From positions 62,001 to 126,000 of the forward strand of contig NZ_VSSO01000006.1 of NCBI RefSeq assembly GCF_008312885.1: DNA of 64,000 nt, in the 5' to 3' direction. The position numbers were made by a program, and so were the translations under genes. Source of the DNA: Lolliginicoccus suaedae (GTDB taxonomy: Bacteria; Actinomycetota; Actinomycetes; Mycobacteriales; Mycobacteriaceae). Under the pieces are notes generated by a model. It made no database searches. It was not told the origin of the DNA and was given only the letters and a program-made list of their open reading frames with translations. Below are positions 16,198-27,862 of the stretch, piece after piece (position 1 is the stretch's first letter; each line of letters opens with the position of its first letter).

Positions 16198-17316
16198 GTG
16201 AGCCCCCCTAGCAGCCCCAGCCGACCAAGCGTGACCAGCGTCTACTGGCCGCGGGTGGCCCCGCCCAGGACCGGGCAGGATGCCACCGAAGCGCTCGCCC
16301 GTCTCCGGGGCCACGCCGATGCCGCGCGCTGCTCCCACGCCGCCGTGCACCCGTCAACCGTCCTCGGCGCGGGCACTGCCGGGCTCACGCGCCTGCTCGA
16401 CGAGCCCGGCACCTCGGCCCGGCTGCTGATCGCGCTCCCCTCGCTCGCCGCGCTGCCAGCCGCAGGCACGCCCGAAGCCAGCGAGCTGCGCCGGGCGCTC
16501 GAGCATGAGCTCCTCGATGGCGTGGTCCTCATCGGCATCGGCACGGTCGATTCCCTCGCCGATGCCACCGCGCGCCTGCGCGCGCTCGTCGGCCGCGACA
16601 AGCTCGTGCTGGTCCAGGCCCCCATGCCCCTGCCCCGCTCCGGCGATCCCGATCTGCCCGCGGGCATCGACGGCACGGTAGCCATCGAGCTCACCCGCAC
16701 CACCGCAGGCGTCCTCGCCGGGCACAACGGTCGCGACCACACTCTCGCCAAGCACTACGTGCCACGCTCCGAGTTCCACCTGATGCGGGCCCACGTCGCG
16801 CGCCACTGGCCACGAACCCTCGTGCCCGCCGGCAGCACCCCGGAGGCGCGGCTCATCGACGCGCTCGGGCCAGGCAGCCCGATCATCACCCACGAGTCGG
16901 AGGGGAGCGGCACGCTGCTGGCCGCCGCGCTCGCCCTGCGCGCAGAGCGGCCCGAGGTTTTCGGCGGAGGGGAGTACGAGCCCCTGTCGGCCACCGGTCC
17001 CCGCCAGACCCATGTCGTCGCGTTCGCGCGCGGCAGGCCCCACGCCCTGCCCGAAGCAATATGCCTCGTCCTGCGATCGCTGAACCACGACATCGCCACC
17101 GATATCGACGACGACCCCGCCGAGTGGGCGCGCACCCTCATCCGTTTCCCGCCCGGCACCTGGCACGATATCGCCACCGACCGGACCATCCACTGCTCCC
17201 CCGACGACCAAGGGGTCAGCATCCCGGACGCGCTGCCGGGCTCGGGCATGGCACTGTACGTGCGTGGCGGCGAGCCCCAACCACCCCCGCGCGAGCTGCG
17301 CCCTCGAACGAGCTAG
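16198..17316 (+). CDS. shortened TreY-like protein (maltooligosyltrehalose synthase remnant)
   Basis: 372 residues, about half the usual TreY length (about 760). The C-terminal third is TreY-like: ALALRAERPEVFGGGEYEPL, ATGPRQTHVVAFARG and RFPPGTWHDIATDR correspond to the end domain of maltooligosyltrehalose synthase. The N-terminal opening VTSVYWPRVAPPRTGQDATE plus a CSHAAVHPS stretch looks like a worn version of the TreY barrel start. GH13 catalytic motifs are not recognisable, so trehalose synthase activity is unlikely. The gene sits beside the Rv1565c-like acyltransferase and near ilvA, where mycobacteria keep treX-treY-treZ. GTG start after GGAG. It has no internal stop, so it may be expressed. 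Confidence 0.6.
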   Translation: MSPPSSPSRPSVTSVYWPRVAPPRTGQDATEALARLRGHADAARCSHAAVHPSTVLGAGTAGLTRLLDEPGTSARLLIALPSLAALPAAGTPEASELRRALEHELLDGVVLIGIGTVDSLADATARLRALVGRDKLVLVQAPMPLPRSGDPDLPAGIDGTVAIELTRTTAGVLAGHNGRDHTLAKHYVPRSEFHLMRAHVARHWPRTLVPAGSTPEARLIDALGPGSPIITHESEGSGTLLAAALALRAERPEVFGGGEYEPLSATGPRQTHVVAFARGRPHALPEAICLVLRSLNHDIATDIDDDPAEWARTLIRFPPGTWHDIATDRTIHCSPDDQGVSIPDALPGSGMALYVRGGEPQPPPRELRPRTS

Positions 17317-17896: not shown

Positions 17897-19255
17897 CTAG
17901 ATCAGGTAGCGGAAGGCGGGCTTGCCCGGCTCGAGGCGCTCGACGTCCATCCCGGACTTGCGGATCCGTGCGAGCAGCGGCGCGAGCCCCTCCCGCTCAC
18001 CGAGCTCGATGCCGACGAGGGCTCCCCCGGTCTCGCGGTTGTTGCGCTTGACGTACTCGAACATGGTGATGTCGTCATCGGGGCCAAGGACCTGGTCGAG
18101 GAACCGGCGCAGCGCACCGGGCTCCTGCGGGAAGTTGACGAGGAAGTAGTGCTTGAGCCCCATGTGGACGAGCGAGCGCTCGAGGATCTCGCCGTAGCGG
18201 GAGACGTCATTGTTGCCGCCGGAGACGATGCAGACGATGTTCTGCCCGGGCTCGAAGGTCATCTGCTCGAGCGCTGCGGTGGCGAGCGCCCCCGCCGGCT
18301 CGGCGATGATGCCCTCGTTCTGGTAGAGGTCGAGCATGGCGGTGCATACGGCGCCCTCGTCGACCTTGATCAGAGAGAGATCTCCCGGGTGGCTCGGGCG
18401 CGGAACCGACGCGACGAGCGGCAGCGATGCGTGAGTGAGCGCGGTCGCTCCCGCGGCGGCGAGGACGGAGTAGGTGAAGTCGCCGACGCGCCGGACGGCC
18501 GCACCATCGACGAAGGGATCGATGTCGCGGAGCGTGACGGGGCCGTGGGCCGCGAGCGCGGCGATCATCGAGGCCGCCCCGGAGGGCTCGGCACCGACGA
18601 TGGTGGTGCGGGGGGATCGTTCCCGCAGGTAGGTGGTGACACCGGCGATGAGCCCTCCCCCACCGACAGGAACCACGATGGCGTCGAGATCACCGTCGAG
18701 CTCGGCGAGGATCTCGGCGGCGATGGTGCCTTGGCCTGCCGCCGTGCGCGGGTCGTTGAACGGCGGAACGAGGGTGGCGCCGGTCTGCTCGCAATCCTCG
18801 GCAGCGGCCGCGGCGGCCTCGTCGTACGTGGGGCCGGTGATCTTCAGCTGGACGAAGCTGTTGCCGTGCGCTCGGATGCGGTCGCGCTTCTGCTTGGGCG
18901 TGTTGGAGGGCAGGTAGATGCGCCCCTGGATGCCGAGGGCCTTGCAAGCGAGCGCGACTCCTTGCGCGTGGTTGCCGGCGCTGGCGCACACCACACCGGC
19001 GGCGCGCTCCTTGTCGGTCAGTTGCACCATGAGGTTGTAGGCGCCGCGCAGCTTGTAGGAGCGGACCCGCTGGAGGTCCTCGCGCTTGAGCCAGATGTTG
19101 GCGCCGGTGATCTCGGAGAGGCGCTCGCACCGCTCGAGGGGCGTTTCCGCGACGACGCCGCTGATGCGCGCTGCGGCAGCGTCGATATCGTCCGCGGTCA
19201 GCAGCGCCGTGGACGTGGGGGCCTGGAGATCATGAGCAGTTGACACTCGGTCCAT
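17897..19255 (-). CDS. ilvA: threonine ammonia-lyase (biosynthetic)
   Basis: 452 residues. PLP fold-type II: IWLKREDLQRVRSYKLRGAYN (PLP Lys in SYK), ASAGNHAQGVALACK, YLPSNTPKQKRDRIRAHG, the phosphate loop VPVGGGGLIAG and SGGNNDVSRY. The last about 85 residues (HYFLVNFPQEPGALRRFLDQ, FEYVKRNNRETGGALVGIEL) are a single ACT-like regulatory domain, so isoleucine feedback is expected. First step of isoleucine synthesis: threonine to 2-oxobutanoate and ammonia. ATG start at 19255 follows a short hairpin (19281-19296). Confidence 0.96.
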   Translation of the reverse strand: MDRVSTAHDLQAPTSTALLTADDIDAAAARISGVVAETPLERCERLSEITGANIWLKREDLQRVRSYKLRGAYNLMVQLTDKERAAGVVCASAGNHAQGVALACKALGIQGRIYLPSNTPKQKRDRIRAHGNSFVQLKITGPTYDEAAAAAAEDCEQTGATLVPPFNDPRTAAGQGTIAAEILAELDGDLDAIVVPVGGGGLIAGVTTYLRERSPRTTIVGAEPSGAASMIAALAAHGPVTLRDIDPFVDGAAVRRVGDFTYSVLAAAGATALTHASLPLVASVPRPSHPGDLSLIKVDEGAVCTAMLDLYQNEGIIAEPAGALATAALEQMTFEPGQNIVCIVSGGNNDVSRYGEILERSLVHMGLKHYFLVNFPQEPGALRRFLDQVLGPDDDITMFEYVKRNNRETGGALVGIELGEREGLAPLLARIRKSGMDVERLEPGKPAFRYLI

Positions 19256-19342
19256 GCTGCCATCCCGGGTGCACCAGTATCCAGTCGTTGGACTGGTTGG
19301 TCCGTTCCGTGACGTTCCCGGTAGCGTCCCGCGCCCAGGCCC

Positions 19343-19798
19343 TTAGTCGCGAGCGGGCCCTTGGTCGCGCGGGGCGAGGACGAGGACGGGGATGATGCGG
19401 TCGGTCTTGGCCTGGTACTCGTTGTAGTCGGGCCACACCTCGGCGGCACGCTGCCACCAGAGATCGCGCTCCTCGCCCTGGACCTCGCGGGCGTCATAGT
19501 CCTTGCGGTTGGCGCCGTCCTGCAGCTCGACGTGCGGGTGGGCGAGGATGTTGTGGTACCAGGCAGGGTGCCGGGGCGCGCCGCCCATCGAGGCGATGAG
19601 GGCGTACTCACCGTTGTGCTCGACGCGCATGAGGCAGGCCTTGCGCAGGTTTCCGCTCCGTGCACCGCGCATGGTGACAACGACCACGGGCTTGCCGCCC
19701 ATGGTGTTGCCTTCGGCGCCGTCGCTGGCCTCGTAGGTCTCGATCTGCTGGCGGACGAAGTCAGTGGCGGGCGGCTCGTAGGTTCCGGACAGTGGCAT
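19343..19798 (-). CDS. deazaflavin (F420)-dependent nitroreductase family protein
   Basis: 151 residues. Ddn/FDOR-type split-barrel: VVVVTMRGARSGNLRKACLMRVEHNGEYALIASMGGAP, then HPAWYHNILAHPHVELQDG, RKDYDAREVQGEERDLWWQRAAEVWPDY and a C-terminal RIIPVLVLAP. Family members bind coenzyme F420 and reduce enones, nitro compounds or quinones; the substrate here is unknown. ATG preceded by GAGGAGAC. The frame is open for another 470 bases upstream but that part is the shadow of the serpin gene. Confidence 0.88.
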   Translation of the reverse strand: MPLSGTYEPPATDFVRQQIETYEASDGAEGNTMGGKPVVVVTMRGARSGNLRKACLMRVEHNGEYALIASMGGAPRHPAWYHNILAHPHVELQDGANRKDYDAREVQGEERDLWWQRAAEVWPDYNEYQAKTDRIIPVLVLAPRDQGPARD

Positions 19799-19851
19799 GG
19801 CGCGGGTCTCCTCGGTCGGCGGGGCTCGGCGGCGGGATCGGTGATGCGGGG

Positions 19852-21123
19852 TCAGGCGGTGGGGTCGGTGGTGGTGCCGGCGAACAGTGGCATCCCGGTG
19901 GGCTGGTGCATCAGCACGAAGGAGAATGCCTGGTCGGCACGGAAGGTGATCTGCGACTGCGGGGGCATGCTGGTCACTCCGGCTAGGCCGGTGACGGCCG
20001 CGGCCTCGGTGCCGGCCTCGTCGACGGTGATGGTGGCGCGATGGATGGCATCGCTGAGGGTGAAGCCGGGCGCGATGTCGTCGAGGCCACCGAGGTCGGT
20101 GAGGCCGAGCCGGGCGAGCGTGTCGAGCAGCCCGGTGCTGGTATCGATGCGGAACCGGGGCACGGCCACCTGCGCGGATCGCTCGGTGCCGCCGCGCGCG
20201 AGCTCCGCGAGCATTGCCTCGGTGACGGCGGGCGGCGCGGCGGCCTCGTCGGTGGGGTCGAGGGCGATCCACATCACCAGCTCGTCACCGCGGTAGGGCA
20301 GGGCGATGGCCGTCCAGCCTGGCGCCTCGATGTGCCGCACCCGCAGGTTCTGCTTGTTCATCATGGGTGTGGTGACGGTGGCCCCGCCCGGACGGGTGAA
20401 CGGCTCGTCACGAGTCTCGTTCTCGCTGAACTGCACTTGCCATTCGGCCTTCATGTAGGTGGCGTTGGCGAGGACCGCGACGGTGGCGGGGTCGAGCCGG
20501 TCGAACATCTCGGTGATGCGCCCCGCGGTGTTGTCGCTGGCCCAGTCGTTGAGCACTTGCACCGCATCGCTGCTCGCGAAGTCCACCTGTTCGGGCTGGG
20601 CACCGAACTGGTCAGAGAGGGTGTCGGTGAACTCATCGCCGAGGTCGAGCCCCTCTTGAACGAAGAGGCCCTGGGCGAGGGCAACGACCGTGGGTGCTGG
20701 CGGGTCATCGCTGCCACGGGTGGCGCCAGGATCGGTAGGCTCGGGCGGCTCGCTAGTAGTGCCTATCGTGTCGAGCAGATCGCCGTACGCTTGCGCCGGA
20801 GTGGTCCCGGGGTAGCCGAACACGGTGTCGAGCTGCTCAGCGGTTGTGCCGCCTGCTCCCGCGCGAAGCATGGCGAACGCCGTGGCGATGCTCAGCGGGG
20901 AGTACACCGTGTTGGCCTGGTCCTGGCTGGCCAGCTCCTGGCTGAAACGCTCGGTGAAGCGTTGGATCCCATCGCGCGCTGCCTCCACGTCCCCGGCAGC
21001 GCTGCCAGGGACGCTGCTCGGTTCCGCGGGCGCGGACTCGTCGATGCTCCCGCACGACGTGCTCAGCACGAGGGCTGCCGCGGCGCCGAGCATGGCGAGC
21101 CTGCCTGGTGCGATTCTGCGCAT
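19852..21123 (-). CDS. serpin-family serine protease inhibitor, predicted lipoprotein
   Basis: 423 residues. N-terminal signal with a Cys at about residue 24 (LVLSTSCGS) suggests a lipoprotein, though the residue at -3 is atypical. Serpin motifs: NTVYSPLSIATAFAMLRAGA, LANATYMKAEWQVQF, VTTPMMNKQ, a predicted reactive loop DEAGTEAAAVTGLAGVTS ending just before MPPQ, then ADQAFSFVLMHQPTGMPLFAG. Counting 17 residues from the hinge Glu puts P1 near Ser-Met, so a serine protease of elastase-like or subtilisin-like preference is possible (inference). The hinge has small residues at P12-P10, so it should be inhibitory. Lies 44 bases downstream of dnaE on the same strand. Confidence 0.88.
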   Translation of the reverse strand: MRRIAPGRLAMLGAAAALVLSTSCGSIDESAPAEPSSVPGSAAGDVEAARDGIQRFTERFSQELASQDQANTVYSPLSIATAFAMLRAGAGGTTAEQLDTVFGYPGTTPAQAYGDLLDTIGTTSEPPEPTDPGATRGSDDPPAPTVVALAQGLFVQEGLDLGDEFTDTLSDQFGAQPEQVDFASSDAVQVLNDWASDNTAGRITEMFDRLDPATVAVLANATYMKAEWQVQFSENETRDEPFTRPGGATVTTPMMNKQNLRVRHIEAPGWTAIALPYRGDELVMWIALDPTDEAAAPPAVTEAMLAELARGGTERSAQVAVPRFRIDTSTGLLDTLARLGLTDLGGLDDIAPGFTLSDAIHRATITVDEAGTEAAAVTGLAGVTSMPPQSQITFRADQAFSFVLMHQPTGMPLFAGTTTDPTA

Positions 21124-21167
21124 GTCCGCTCCCGTGCTGTGGGGTGCCGTGGTCGTTCTTCCTATTC

Positions 21168-24100
21168 CTACCCCAGGCAGCCTGGTCCGAGGAGTGCTTT
21201 GAGGTCGCCCATGAGCGCCGACGATGGGGCCACTCGATAGTTGTCGTCGAGCTTGAGGGTGGTGGTGCGGTCCCCGGCGATGAGCCGCACGTGCACGTCG
21301 GCGCTGCCGGGATGGCGGGTGAGGACTTGCTTGAGCGCGCCGACCTTGTCCGGAGTGCACAGCCGGGTGGGCATGGTCAGCGCGATGGGCTGGGCCACGC
21401 CAACGTCGGAGAGATCGGGCACCACCAGATCATTGGCGATGATGGAGAGCCGATCATCCTGGCGCTTGAGCCGCCCCTTGACGAGCACGATGGCGTCCTC
21501 GGTGACGTCCATGCCGTAGAGGGAGTAGGACTGCGGGAAGAACATGATCTCGATGCCGCCCTCGAGATCCTCGAGCTGAGCGGCTGCCCAGGGCTGGCCG
21601 TTCTTGTTGACGCGCCGGGTGACGGAGGCGAAGATGCCACCAACGGTGACCTGGGCGCCGTCCTTGATGGTGCCGTCGAGGATGGCAGTGATCGGCGTGT
21701 CGGTCTGGGCGGCGAGCAGGTGCTCGATTCCGTTGAGCGGATGCCCGGAGACGTAGAGGCCGAGCATCTCGCGCTCGAGGGCGAGGCGGTGCTTGGTGTC
21801 CCATTCCTCATCCGGGACCTTCACCTCGAAAACGCTGGTGACGTCCTCCGCATCGTCGCCGCCGAAGAGGTCGAACTGGCCCATCGCCTGGGCCTTCTTG
21901 GTGCTCATCACGGCATCGACGGCATCGGAGTGGATGTGGACGAGCCCCTTGCGGGGATGCTCCATGGAGTCGAACGCGCCGGCCTTGATGAGCGATTCGA
22001 CGGCCTTCTTGCCGCAGGCGGCGGCATCGACCTTGTTCAGGTAGTCGGAGAACGACGTGTAGTGCCCCTTCTCGGTGCGGCCCTCGATGATCGCGGAGAC
22101 AACATTGGAGCCGACGTTGCGAACGGCATTGAGCCCGAAGCGGATGTCGTCGCCGACGGAGGTGAAGTTTCGCTCGGACTCGTTGACGTCCGGAGGCAGC
22201 ACCGTGACACCGATCTTGCGGCAATCGGACAGGTAGATAGCAGCCTTGTCCTTGTCATCACCGACAGAGGTGAGCAGCCCCGCCATGTACTCGGCGGGGA
22301 AGTTCGCCTTGAAGTAGGCGGTCCAGTAGGAGACGAGCCCGTACCCGGCGGCGTGGGACTTGTTGAACGCGTAGCCGGCGAACGGGAGGATCGTGTCCCA
22401 CAGTGCCTTGATGGCGGCCTTGCCGAAGCCGTTGTCCTGCATGCCCTTCTCGAAGCCCTCGAACTCGGCGGCGAGCACCTCGGCCTTCTTCTTGCCCATG
22501 GCGCGCCGGAGGATGTCGGCGCGCCCGAGGGAGTACCCGGCTACCTTCTGAGCGATCTGCATGATCTGCTCCTGGTAGACGATCAGGCCGTAGGTCTCCG
22601 AGAGGATCTCCTTGAGGGGTTCCTCGAGCTCGGGGTGGATCGGCTTGACGGGCTGGCGGCCGTTCTTGCGGTCGGCATAGTCGTTGTGGGCGTTCATGCC
22701 CATCGGGCCGGGGCGGTAGAGCGCGAGCACGGCGACGATGTCCTCGAACCCGGTGGGCTGCATGCGGCGCAGCAGGTCGCGCATGGCCGAGCCGTCGAGC
22801 TGGAACACCCCGAGGGTGTCGCCGCGGGCAAGCAGCTCGTAGGCCTTGGGGTCGTCGAGGGCGAGCGTGTCGAGATCGATGTCGATGCCGCGGTTGGACT
22901 TGAGGTTGTCGATGGCATCGCCGATGACCGTGAGGTTGCGCAGGCCGAGGAAGTCCATCTTGAGCAGGCCGATGGCCTCGCAGGAGGGGTAGTCCCACCC
23001 GGTGATGATCGCCCCGTCCTGCGCGCGCTTCCACAGCGGGATCGATTCCATCAACGGCTCGGACGACATGATGACCGCGCAGGCATGCACGCCGGCATTG
23101 CGGATCAGGCCCTCGAGGCCGAGCGCGGTCTCGTAGATCTGGCGCACCTCGGGGTCGGTCTCGATGAGGGCGCGCACCTCGGCGGCCTCCTTGAACCGCT
23201 CGTGCTGGGGGTCCATGATGCCGTGGAGCGGGATGTCCTTCGCCATGACGGGCGGCGGCAGAGCCTTGGTGATCCTGTCGGCGACGCCATAGCCGGGCTG
23301 CCCGAGCGTCACGCGCGCGGAATCCTTGATGGCGGCCTTGGTCTTAATGGTGCCGAAGGTGATCACCTGCGCGACTCGATCGCTGCCCCACCGCTCGGTG
23401 GCGTAGCGCACCATCTCGCCACGGCGGCGATCATCGAAGTCGATATCGATATCGGGCATGGAGACGCGCTCGGGGTTGAGGAACCGCTCGAACAGCAGCC
23501 CGTGCGGGATCGGGTCGATGTTGGTGATGCCGAGCGCGAACGCCACGAGCGAGCCGGCCGCTGAGCCACGGCCGGGCCCCACCCGGATGCCTACTTCCTG
23601 GGCGTGCCGGATGAGATCGCCGACGACGAGGAAGTAGGCGGGGAAGCCCATCTGGATGATGACGTCGAGCTCGTACTCTGCCCGCCGGGTGTAGTCCTCG
23701 GGCACGCCGGACGGGAAGCGACGCTGCAGGCCCTCGTGGACGCTGCGCGCGAGGAAGCTGCCCTGCGTCTCGCCCTCGGGCACGGGGAAGACGGGCATGC
23801 GATCACGGTGCTTCCACACGTCCTCGTAGGATTCGACGCGCTCGGCGATGAGCAGCGTGTTATCGCACGCCCCGGGGACCATATCGTCCCAGGCAGCACG
23901 CATCTGCTCGGCCGACTTGAGGAAGTAGCCATCGCCGTCGAACCGGAAGCGATTGGGGTCGCTGAGCGTCTTGCCGGTCTGCACGCACAGCAGCGCCTCA
24001 TGGCTCTTGGCCTGGTCCATCGTCACGTAGTGGCAGTCGTTGGTGACCACCGGCGGGATGCCAGCCTTGCGCCCCACCTCGAGCAGTCCGTCGCGCACCC

Positions 24101-24710
24101 GCCGCTCGATGGAGATGCCATGATCCATCAGCTCGAGGAAGAAGTTCTCCTTGCCGAAGATCTCCTGCCACTTCGCCGCGGCCTCGAGCGCCTCCTTGTC
24201 ATGGCCGAGCCGCAATCGGGTTTGCACCTCGCCCGACGGGCAGCCCGTGGTGGCGATGATGCCCTCGGAATACTGCGCGATCAGTTCCGCGTCCATGCGC
24301 GGCCACTTGCCGAGCTGACCCTCGATCGATGCCAGCGAGGACAGGGTGAACAGGTTCCGCAGCCCCGTCGCGTTGCGGGCCACCATCGTCATGTGCGTGT
24401 AGGCGCCGCTGCCGGACACATCATCGGACTTCTGCGACGGCTCGCCCCACTTGACCCGCTTGAGGTTGAACCGGGACTCCGGCGCCACATAAGCCTCGAT
24501 GCCGATGATGGGCTTGATGCCGGCCTTCGTCGCCACGTTGTAGAAATCGCTCGCGCCGAACATGTTGCCGTGGTCGGTCATGCCCACCGCGGTCATGCCG
24601 AGCCGCTGCGCCTCCGCGAACAGCGGCTTGACCTTTGCCGCTCCATCGAGCATCGAGTACTCGGTGTGATTGTGCAGATGCACGAACGATCCATGCTGCG
24701 AACCAGCCAC
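21168..24710 (-). CDS. dnaE: DNA polymerase III alpha subunit
   Basis: 1180 residues, replicative polymerase of the DnaE1 type. N-terminal PHP domain ([18 protein letters not shown]; mycobacterial DnaE1 uses this domain for proofreading), polymerase core with [18 protein letters not shown] and [13 protein letters not shown] (catalytic aspartates, near residue 420), [25 protein letters not shown], helix-hairpin-helix region, and an OB domain near residue 1010-1090 ([13 protein letters not shown]). The GTG start giving M-A-G-S-Q-H is preceded by GAGGGG. The frame is open upstream into the rarD gene but without similarity. Confidence 0.97.
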
Positions 24711-24754
24711 GTATGCCCCTCGGTCCCGCCGACTCCTGATGTGACGCCCCCACT

Positions 24755-27260: not shown

Positions 27261-27862
27261 GCTTCCTCCCCCTGCTCAGTCTTCTCCGGCGCTGGCTTCT
27301 CCTGGGCAGTCTTTTCGTGGGCTGCCTTGGACGACCGGTGGCGCGTGCCATCGGGCTCCACGCCGATCACGGTCAGCAGCACCAGCAGGATGGCGCCGCC
27401 CACGATCGCCGGATCGGCGACATTGAACACCGGCCAGACACTGCCGTCCGGGGCCAGCAGGGACAGGAAGTCCACGACGTGCCCCTGGAAGCCCCCGGGC
27501 TCGCGGAACACGCGATCGACGAGGTTGCCGAGCGCTCCACCGAGGATCGCGCCAAGACCGATCGCCCAGGGCAGGGAACGGATCCGGCGGCTCGCCACCA
27601 CGATGACCACCGCCACGAGCAGCGTGATGGCCGATAGCAGCCAGGTAAGGCTCGTCGCCATCGAGAACGCCGCCCCAGGATTGCGGTGCAGCGTCAGGTA
27701 CAGCAGCCCTCCGAGAACGCGAACGGGCTCGCGCTCCTCGAGGAAGCGCACGGCAAGGATCTTCGTGGCAAGGTCGAGGACGAGCACGCCGAGGCCGAGG
27801 GCAATGATGGTTCGGGCCCGGCGCGGATGGGCCTGCACGGGGTCGGTGGGTTGTTCGCTCAC
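27257..27862 (-). CDS. lspA: lipoprotein signal peptidase II
   Basis: 201 residues, four membrane segments. Conserved boxes [33 protein letters not shown] and [13 protein letters not shown] hold the two catalytic aspartates. Removes the signal peptide of prolipoproteins such as those predicted in this window. A charged tail of about 30 residues (repeats of the type [12 protein letters not shown]) extends beyond the last membrane segment and is longer than usual. GTG start at 27862 taken for M-S-E-Q-P-T; another in-frame GTG lies 6 bases upstream. Confidence 0.93.

Follow-up and report, generated by a model that had tools for sequence, protein, structure and literature searches.

A putative lipid-anchored inhibitory serpin with a constrained reactive loop downstream of dnaE in Lolliginicoccus suaedae

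Introduction

The role of bacterial serpins has been called enigmatic (PMC8233489), and their target proteases have been said to remain elusive (PMC10090351). Among the described systems, miropin, the Tannerella forsythia serpin of PDB entry 5NCS (PMC8233489), has been suggested to be a safeguard, in T. forsythia, against secreted serine proteases (PMC4404884), and the serpins of Clostridium thermocellum (Kang et al. 2006) have been proposed as regulators of a subtilisin-like protease that the bacterium itself makes (PMC6718151). Thermopin and aeropin are reported to inhibit chymotrypsin, and chloropin to inhibit thrombin and KLK7 (PMC10090351). Membrane-anchored prokaryotic serpins have been noted before by Spence et al. 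2021, where the inhibitory hinge motif, P17-P9, is given as ExGTEAAAA (PMC8233489). Our own literature search, mostly outside subscription journals, found no report on a Mycobacteriales lipoprotein serpin, on serpin P1 preference across prokaryotes, or on a bacterial serpin-HtrA pair.

The present study follows up a preliminary description of a lipoprotein serpin gene in a 64,000-nucleotide stretch of the Lolliginicoccus suaedae genome, hereafter the window. Our comparisons suggest that this gene encodes an ordinary serpin, probably inhibitory and lipid-anchored; it is a further case of an already known protein kind.

Results

The serpin gene occupies 19852..21123 on the minus strand, exactly where the preliminary description had placed it, with its ATG start codon at 21123 and its stop codon ending at 19852, and encodes a predicted lipoprotein of 423 residues. 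PF00079 matches the protein at full length (profile positions 3-370 of 370, E 7.5e-76, 256.2 bits against a cut-off of 27), up to residue 421 of 423, and has no other match in the whole genome; an NCBIfam search of the protein returned no match. Against the PDB, phmmer found 195 sequences at E<=0.001, headed by conserpin, a consensus design (8.1e-44). A profile of 13 related serpins (the seven of the dnaE-linked clade described below and six others) again placed conserpin first, with 5ncs in 12th place (2.8e-75). It is on homology to these 195 PDB sequences that we base the predicted serpin fold of the window protein; the AlphaFold model, computed from a shallow alignment of six rows (the window protein and five relatives), has a pLDDT of 47.6. 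Across six aligned serpins, N71, S75, P76, S78, W228, E369, G371, A374-A376, F400 and P421 are invariant. Residue 151 is Gln in Lolliginicoccus and Asn in its sister genus, a difference which we count against the inhibitory, lipid-anchored reading. Alignments also delimit a Pro/Asp-rich insertion (residues 122-144; 20692..20760, minus strand) ahead of the ALAQGLF-bearing strand, presumably between helix D and s2A in serpin nomenclature, that is present in all seven linked orthologues and shorter in other serpins of the family.

The sequence, together with the signal peptides of its orthologues, predicts a signal peptide at residues 1-23 (21055..21123, minus strand). Lipobox scans place the putative lipidation site next to it, at Cys24 (21052..21054, minus strand), and this cysteine is aligned in all seven linked orthologues. 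The lipobox itself, LSTSC, is atypical in having Ser at both -1 and -3; relatives carry CTAGC or LATAC at the aligned position. Both Lgt and LspA are encoded in the genome, the lspA gene (27371..27790, or G000:C6:89371-89790; minus strand; PF01252, 8.0e-34) lying further upstream of the serpin. The lipid anchor proposed in the preliminary description is consistent with these features, and the serpin is probably held by lipid outside the cell membrane. In a motif scan, run without a false-positive control and varying with the start codon chosen, a lipobox was present in 26 of 30 family serpins and 29 of 40 phylum serpins, so that a lipoprotein serpin looks usual in the phylum; under a looser rule, three more of the 30 family rows pass.

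The hinge, EAGTEAAAV (P17-P9, residues 369-377; 19993..20019, minus strand), identified from the sequence and alignments, contains the GTEAAA noted earlier as inhibitory in type and agrees with the ExGTEAAAA-type pattern. It leads into the bait, TGLAGVTSMPP (P8-P4', residues 378-388; 19960..19992, minus strand). Counting 17 residues from P17 Glu369 puts P1 at Ser385 and P1' at Met386, close to the Ser-Met site first predicted, and relatives with a loop one residue longer, GVT/AMPP, would instead put P1 at Thr384 and P1' at Ser385. Both candidates are small residues, and the loop length is canonical with either (17 residues from Glu369 to Ser385, or 16 with P1 at Thr384). The preliminary description had named hinge loss in orthologues as speaking against an inhibitor; the hinge is intact in all seven dnaE-linked orthologues and degraded in four of 30 rows from the wider family.

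These four degraded hinges belong to L053 and L055 in genus g46 and to L054 and L056 in genus g19, with forms such as EKGTASDSAT and ERGTAGFADT; in g19 they occur alongside intact ones of other species. The four serpins are candidates for lost inhibition. Another set of serpin-like proteins, from G065, G136, G159, G169 and other genomes, mostly of genus g22, matches PF00079 only in two pieces (about profile positions 7-175 and 255-370) with the middle unrecognised, and these are possibly non-inhibitory derivatives.

Could the window protein likewise be a non-inhibitory lipoprotein with a serpin fold, for example a chaperone or a binding protein? The degraded family hinges and the g22 matches in separate pieces give this idea some footing, as does a Streptomyces clade described as deviating from the inhibitory core (PMC8233489). 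We nevertheless regard it as improbable for the window protein, which keeps its hinge, its loop length and the core residues compared in the alignment, and in which the loop is under strong constraint.

Serpins had been described at the outset as uncommon in bacteria. We found PF00079 matches in all four genomes of the genus, in 67 of 301 family genomes (66 of them above the cut-off) spread over 17 of 31 genera, and in 64 of 396 sampled phylum genomes. In this phylum serpins are scattered, yet they are not rare.

On the minus strand the genes around the serpin run lspA, rluD, a gene for a 208-aa protein, rarD, dnaE, serpin, an F420-dependent reductase-like gene, ilvA and DUF6918. The dnaE gene (21168..24728, minus strand; the stretch taken as query) lies immediately upstream on the same strand, 44 bp away, which bears out its earlier placement, and adjoins the serpin in the six other linked genomes at 88.7-98.1% identity. 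The F420-dependent quinone reductase-like gene (19343..19798, minus strand; PF04075, 1.1e-46) lies 53 bp downstream; it adjoins the serpin in six of the seven linked genomes and is absent in G002. Co-transcription of the serpin with its neighbours is possible from this arrangement. A promoter scan of 19200-21400 gave no promoter-like site, and the same region holds two terminator-like sites, the first within the serpin gene, the second in the dnaE-serpin gap on the opposite strand. The order dnaE, serpin, ilvA, DUF6918 is the same in four of four genomes of the genus and in three genomes of the sister genus (g40), which were picked because of their serpin matches. The seven dnaE-linked serpins form one clade (SH-aLRT 100 in a quick tree, the fuller search being unfinished). 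Conserved gene order and a single clade of seven argue for vertical inheritance. Of the named relatives, Lolliginicoccus lacisalsi (85%) and L. levis (83%) come closest.

A mobile or viral origin of the serpin was considered as well and rejected. All 105 plasmid records matched it at less than 60% identity. The viral contigs searched contained no serpin relative (one stretch fitted the pattern, none was confirmed), and a PHROG search of the serpin gave no match.

Secreted proteases encoded nearby had been put forward as something to look for. A Pfam scan of nine window genes around the serpin, two of them without a Pfam match, revealed no serine protease, and the same was true of ten serpin-adjacent genes at five loci of other genera; LspA is the only peptidase seen near the serpin. 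The other genomes of the dnaE-linked clade were compared with the window genes only, a comparison in which an extra gene there could be missed. At the five other-genus loci, the upstream neighbour of the serpin is an alanine-racemase-fold enzyme in four and a flavin-dependent oxidoreductase in the fifth.

A second, full-length DnaE that is DnaE2-like (about 28% identical) is encoded at most about 10 kb from the serpin in eight of 14 non-linked loci fetched as stretches of 14-20 kb (L065, L066, L068, L069, L072, L073, L074 and L077), divergently to the serpin in seven of the eight; in L066 the serpin has an imuB-like IMS gene as its neighbour. That a different DnaE paralogue stands beside the serpin in each lineage is perhaps chance together with shared descent.

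Two further features of the window were recorded. A 372-aa protein (16198-17316, plus strand) without a Pfam match adjoins a SucT-like acyltransferase; of malto-oligosyltrehalose synthase models it matches the final portion alone (best 1.3e-14, profile 728-818 of 838), and it may be a stand-alone TreY C-terminal domain. An mraW RNA (RF01746; 52933-53036, minus strand; 74.1 bits) is the sole Rfam match in the window.

In the alignment of the seven orthologues, the loop from P17 to P4' has a mean column identity of 0.905 versus 0.589 in the remaining mature protein, and one other non-overlapping segment of 20 is as conserved. For the bait alone (P8-P4') the value is 0.896, reached by 9 of 357 other segments; with four divergent sequences added, 12 of 357 segments are as conserved. 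In three within-genus contrasts the bait codons show 19 synonymous and 0 nonsynonymous differences, against 332 and 364 in the body (Fisher p 1.0e-6 pooled; 0.076, 0.009 and 0.004 singly), these being raw counts uncorrected for multiple hits and two of the contrasts possibly sharing branches, as the quick tree leaves the branching of L002-L004 unresolved. Three of 357 other 11-codon segments are as low in nonsynonymous differences. Between the two genera, 2 of the 11 bait residues differ (Leu/Val at P6 and, by count, Met/Leu at P1'), and both differences are conservative. Judged by these comparisons, the bait is among the serpin's more constrained pieces and under purifying selection. Such constraint is not general: in genus g19 the bait has changed faster than the body (2 synonymous and 10 nonsynonymous differences versus 129 and 140, p 0.04; identity 0.41 versus 0.67), in genus g11 the contrast is not significant (10 and 4 versus 204 and 201, p 0.17), and in phylum family f54 identity is 0.38 in the bait versus 0.47 in the body.

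These figures also bear on whether the loop is kept for structural reasons such as packing or insertion, in which case its conservation would be uninformative about the target and compatible with the other readings. The conserved stretch takes in the P3'-P4' prolines, which are common in other loops, and conservation stops just after them; the same stretch, however, varies in the sister lineages g19 and f54, and we hold a purely structural cause to be doubtful.

For the phylum, we compared 40 full-length or nearly full-length serpins, one each from 40 of the 64 matching genomes. In the 39 readable loops (L128 was left out), a small residue (T, S, G or A) occupies P1 in 35 and P1' in 37, compared with 7 at P4, 9 at P3, 19 at P2, 25 at P2' and 23 at P7; at P3' and P4', Pro is the commonest residue. 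In the family, 26 of the 30 rows were read, the four with degraded hinges being left out, and P1 is small in 24 and P1' in 15. Outside the phylum, eight of the nine loops read by script, from a total of 11, have a small P1; among the non-phylum loops, P1 is T in L027 and Glu in the second serpin of L026. L138, in a wrong frame, and L025 fell outside the script's nine, and the L025 loop, read by eye, gives Leu. These nine include seven of eight plasmid serpin loops, all with a small P1, in a sample that leans towards the window serpin, which served as its query.

Among candidate own targets, the genome holds four trypsin-family matches, of which, by eye from the sequence, two are HtrA-like and one MarP-like, the fourth being weak (6.3e-4), and two subtilases. 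None of these genes is on contig C6, which carries the serpin: the HtrA-like lie on C3, the MarP-like on C2, and the subtilases on C1 and C2. None of the three loci read in the own genome is a counterpart of the signal-peptide-bearing trypsin-like protein of G002 (L086).

Discussion

A small P1 suits elastase-, HtrA- or subtilisin-like cleavage. From the features above we infer inhibition, lipidation, cleavage site and target of the window serpin in the following form. The protein would be secreted and held by its lipid on the outer side of the membrane, where its exposed loop would be offered to a protease as a substrate. A serine protease preferring small residues, of the elastase, HtrA or subtilisin kind, would cut Thr384-Ser385 or Ser385-Met386, whereupon insertion of the hinge into the main sheet would trap the protease as a covalent complex. 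We consider such a membrane-anchored suicide inhibitor, directed at a small-residue-cutting protease that stays constant, the probable reading, though with reserve. Several results count against it: the weaker rank of the bait in identity, its two between-genera differences, the outcomes for g19 and g11, and the want of an adjoining serine protease gene. The reported chymotrypsin, thrombin and KLK7 targets of thermopin, aeropin and chloropin also count against it, and they show that a small-P1 rule leaves cases out (PMC10090351).

The preliminary description had suggested that the serpin may shield the cell surface, and a shield against competitor or host proteases of the elastase or subtilisin kind is a possible, though not a likely, alternative. 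The lipobox implies a fitting place outside the membrane, the small P1 fits the cleavage preference, and the Bifidobacterium longum serpin and the siropins inhibit elastase-like host proteases (PMC5127057, PMC8233489). An arms race, on the other hand, would predict changes in the bait, and none of its amino acids changed in the three within-genus contrasts; one constant foreign protease would still be compatible with this. A conserved bait points to a constant target rather than a shifting set of foreign proteases. For the suicide inhibitor preferred here, an own envelope protease seems somewhat more likely than a changing foreign set, although loop conservation does not by itself imply that the target is the cell's own: a later paper on miropin explains its conserved loop by proteases of the host and of neighbours (PMC7296668). 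Taken together, the evidence leans moderately towards a constant, perhaps own, target.

A wider proposal can be offered only tentatively: many small-P1 prokaryotic serpins may regulate their own HtrA-, elastase- or subtilisin-like envelope proteases, with the pair in Lolliginicoccus and its sister genus being tightly locked, and the serpin would then be a brake on envelope proteolysis and not a shield. With a single-copy, vertically inherited serpin, a steady bait and few candidate own proteases, this lineage makes the own-target idea directly testable.

Miropin, like the window protein, is a bacterial serpin of the inhibitory kind whose loop is reported to be conserved (PMC7296668). It differs in coming from another phylum, in its bait and in being host-associated. 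Thermobifida fusca, the source of thermopin, is an actinomycete. Thermopin (Group U, Spence et al. 2021), likened here by description, is an inhibitory serpin too (PMC8233489), but it has a C-terminal tail (PMC8233489), whereas the Pfam match of the window serpin reaches almost to its last residue, and it inhibits chymotrypsin (PMC10090351). The B. longum serpin and the siropins, again likened by description, are bacterial inhibitors of elastase-like proteases, to which a small P1 would fit (PMC5127057, PMC8233489); they belong to gut bacteria, and their shown targets are host enzymes. The C. thermocellum serpins, set beside the window serpin by description, differ in being cellulosome-linked. 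The constant bait of the window serpin would suit an own target that stays constant, an idea put forward for these serpins and in part for miropin (PMC6718151, PMC4404884).
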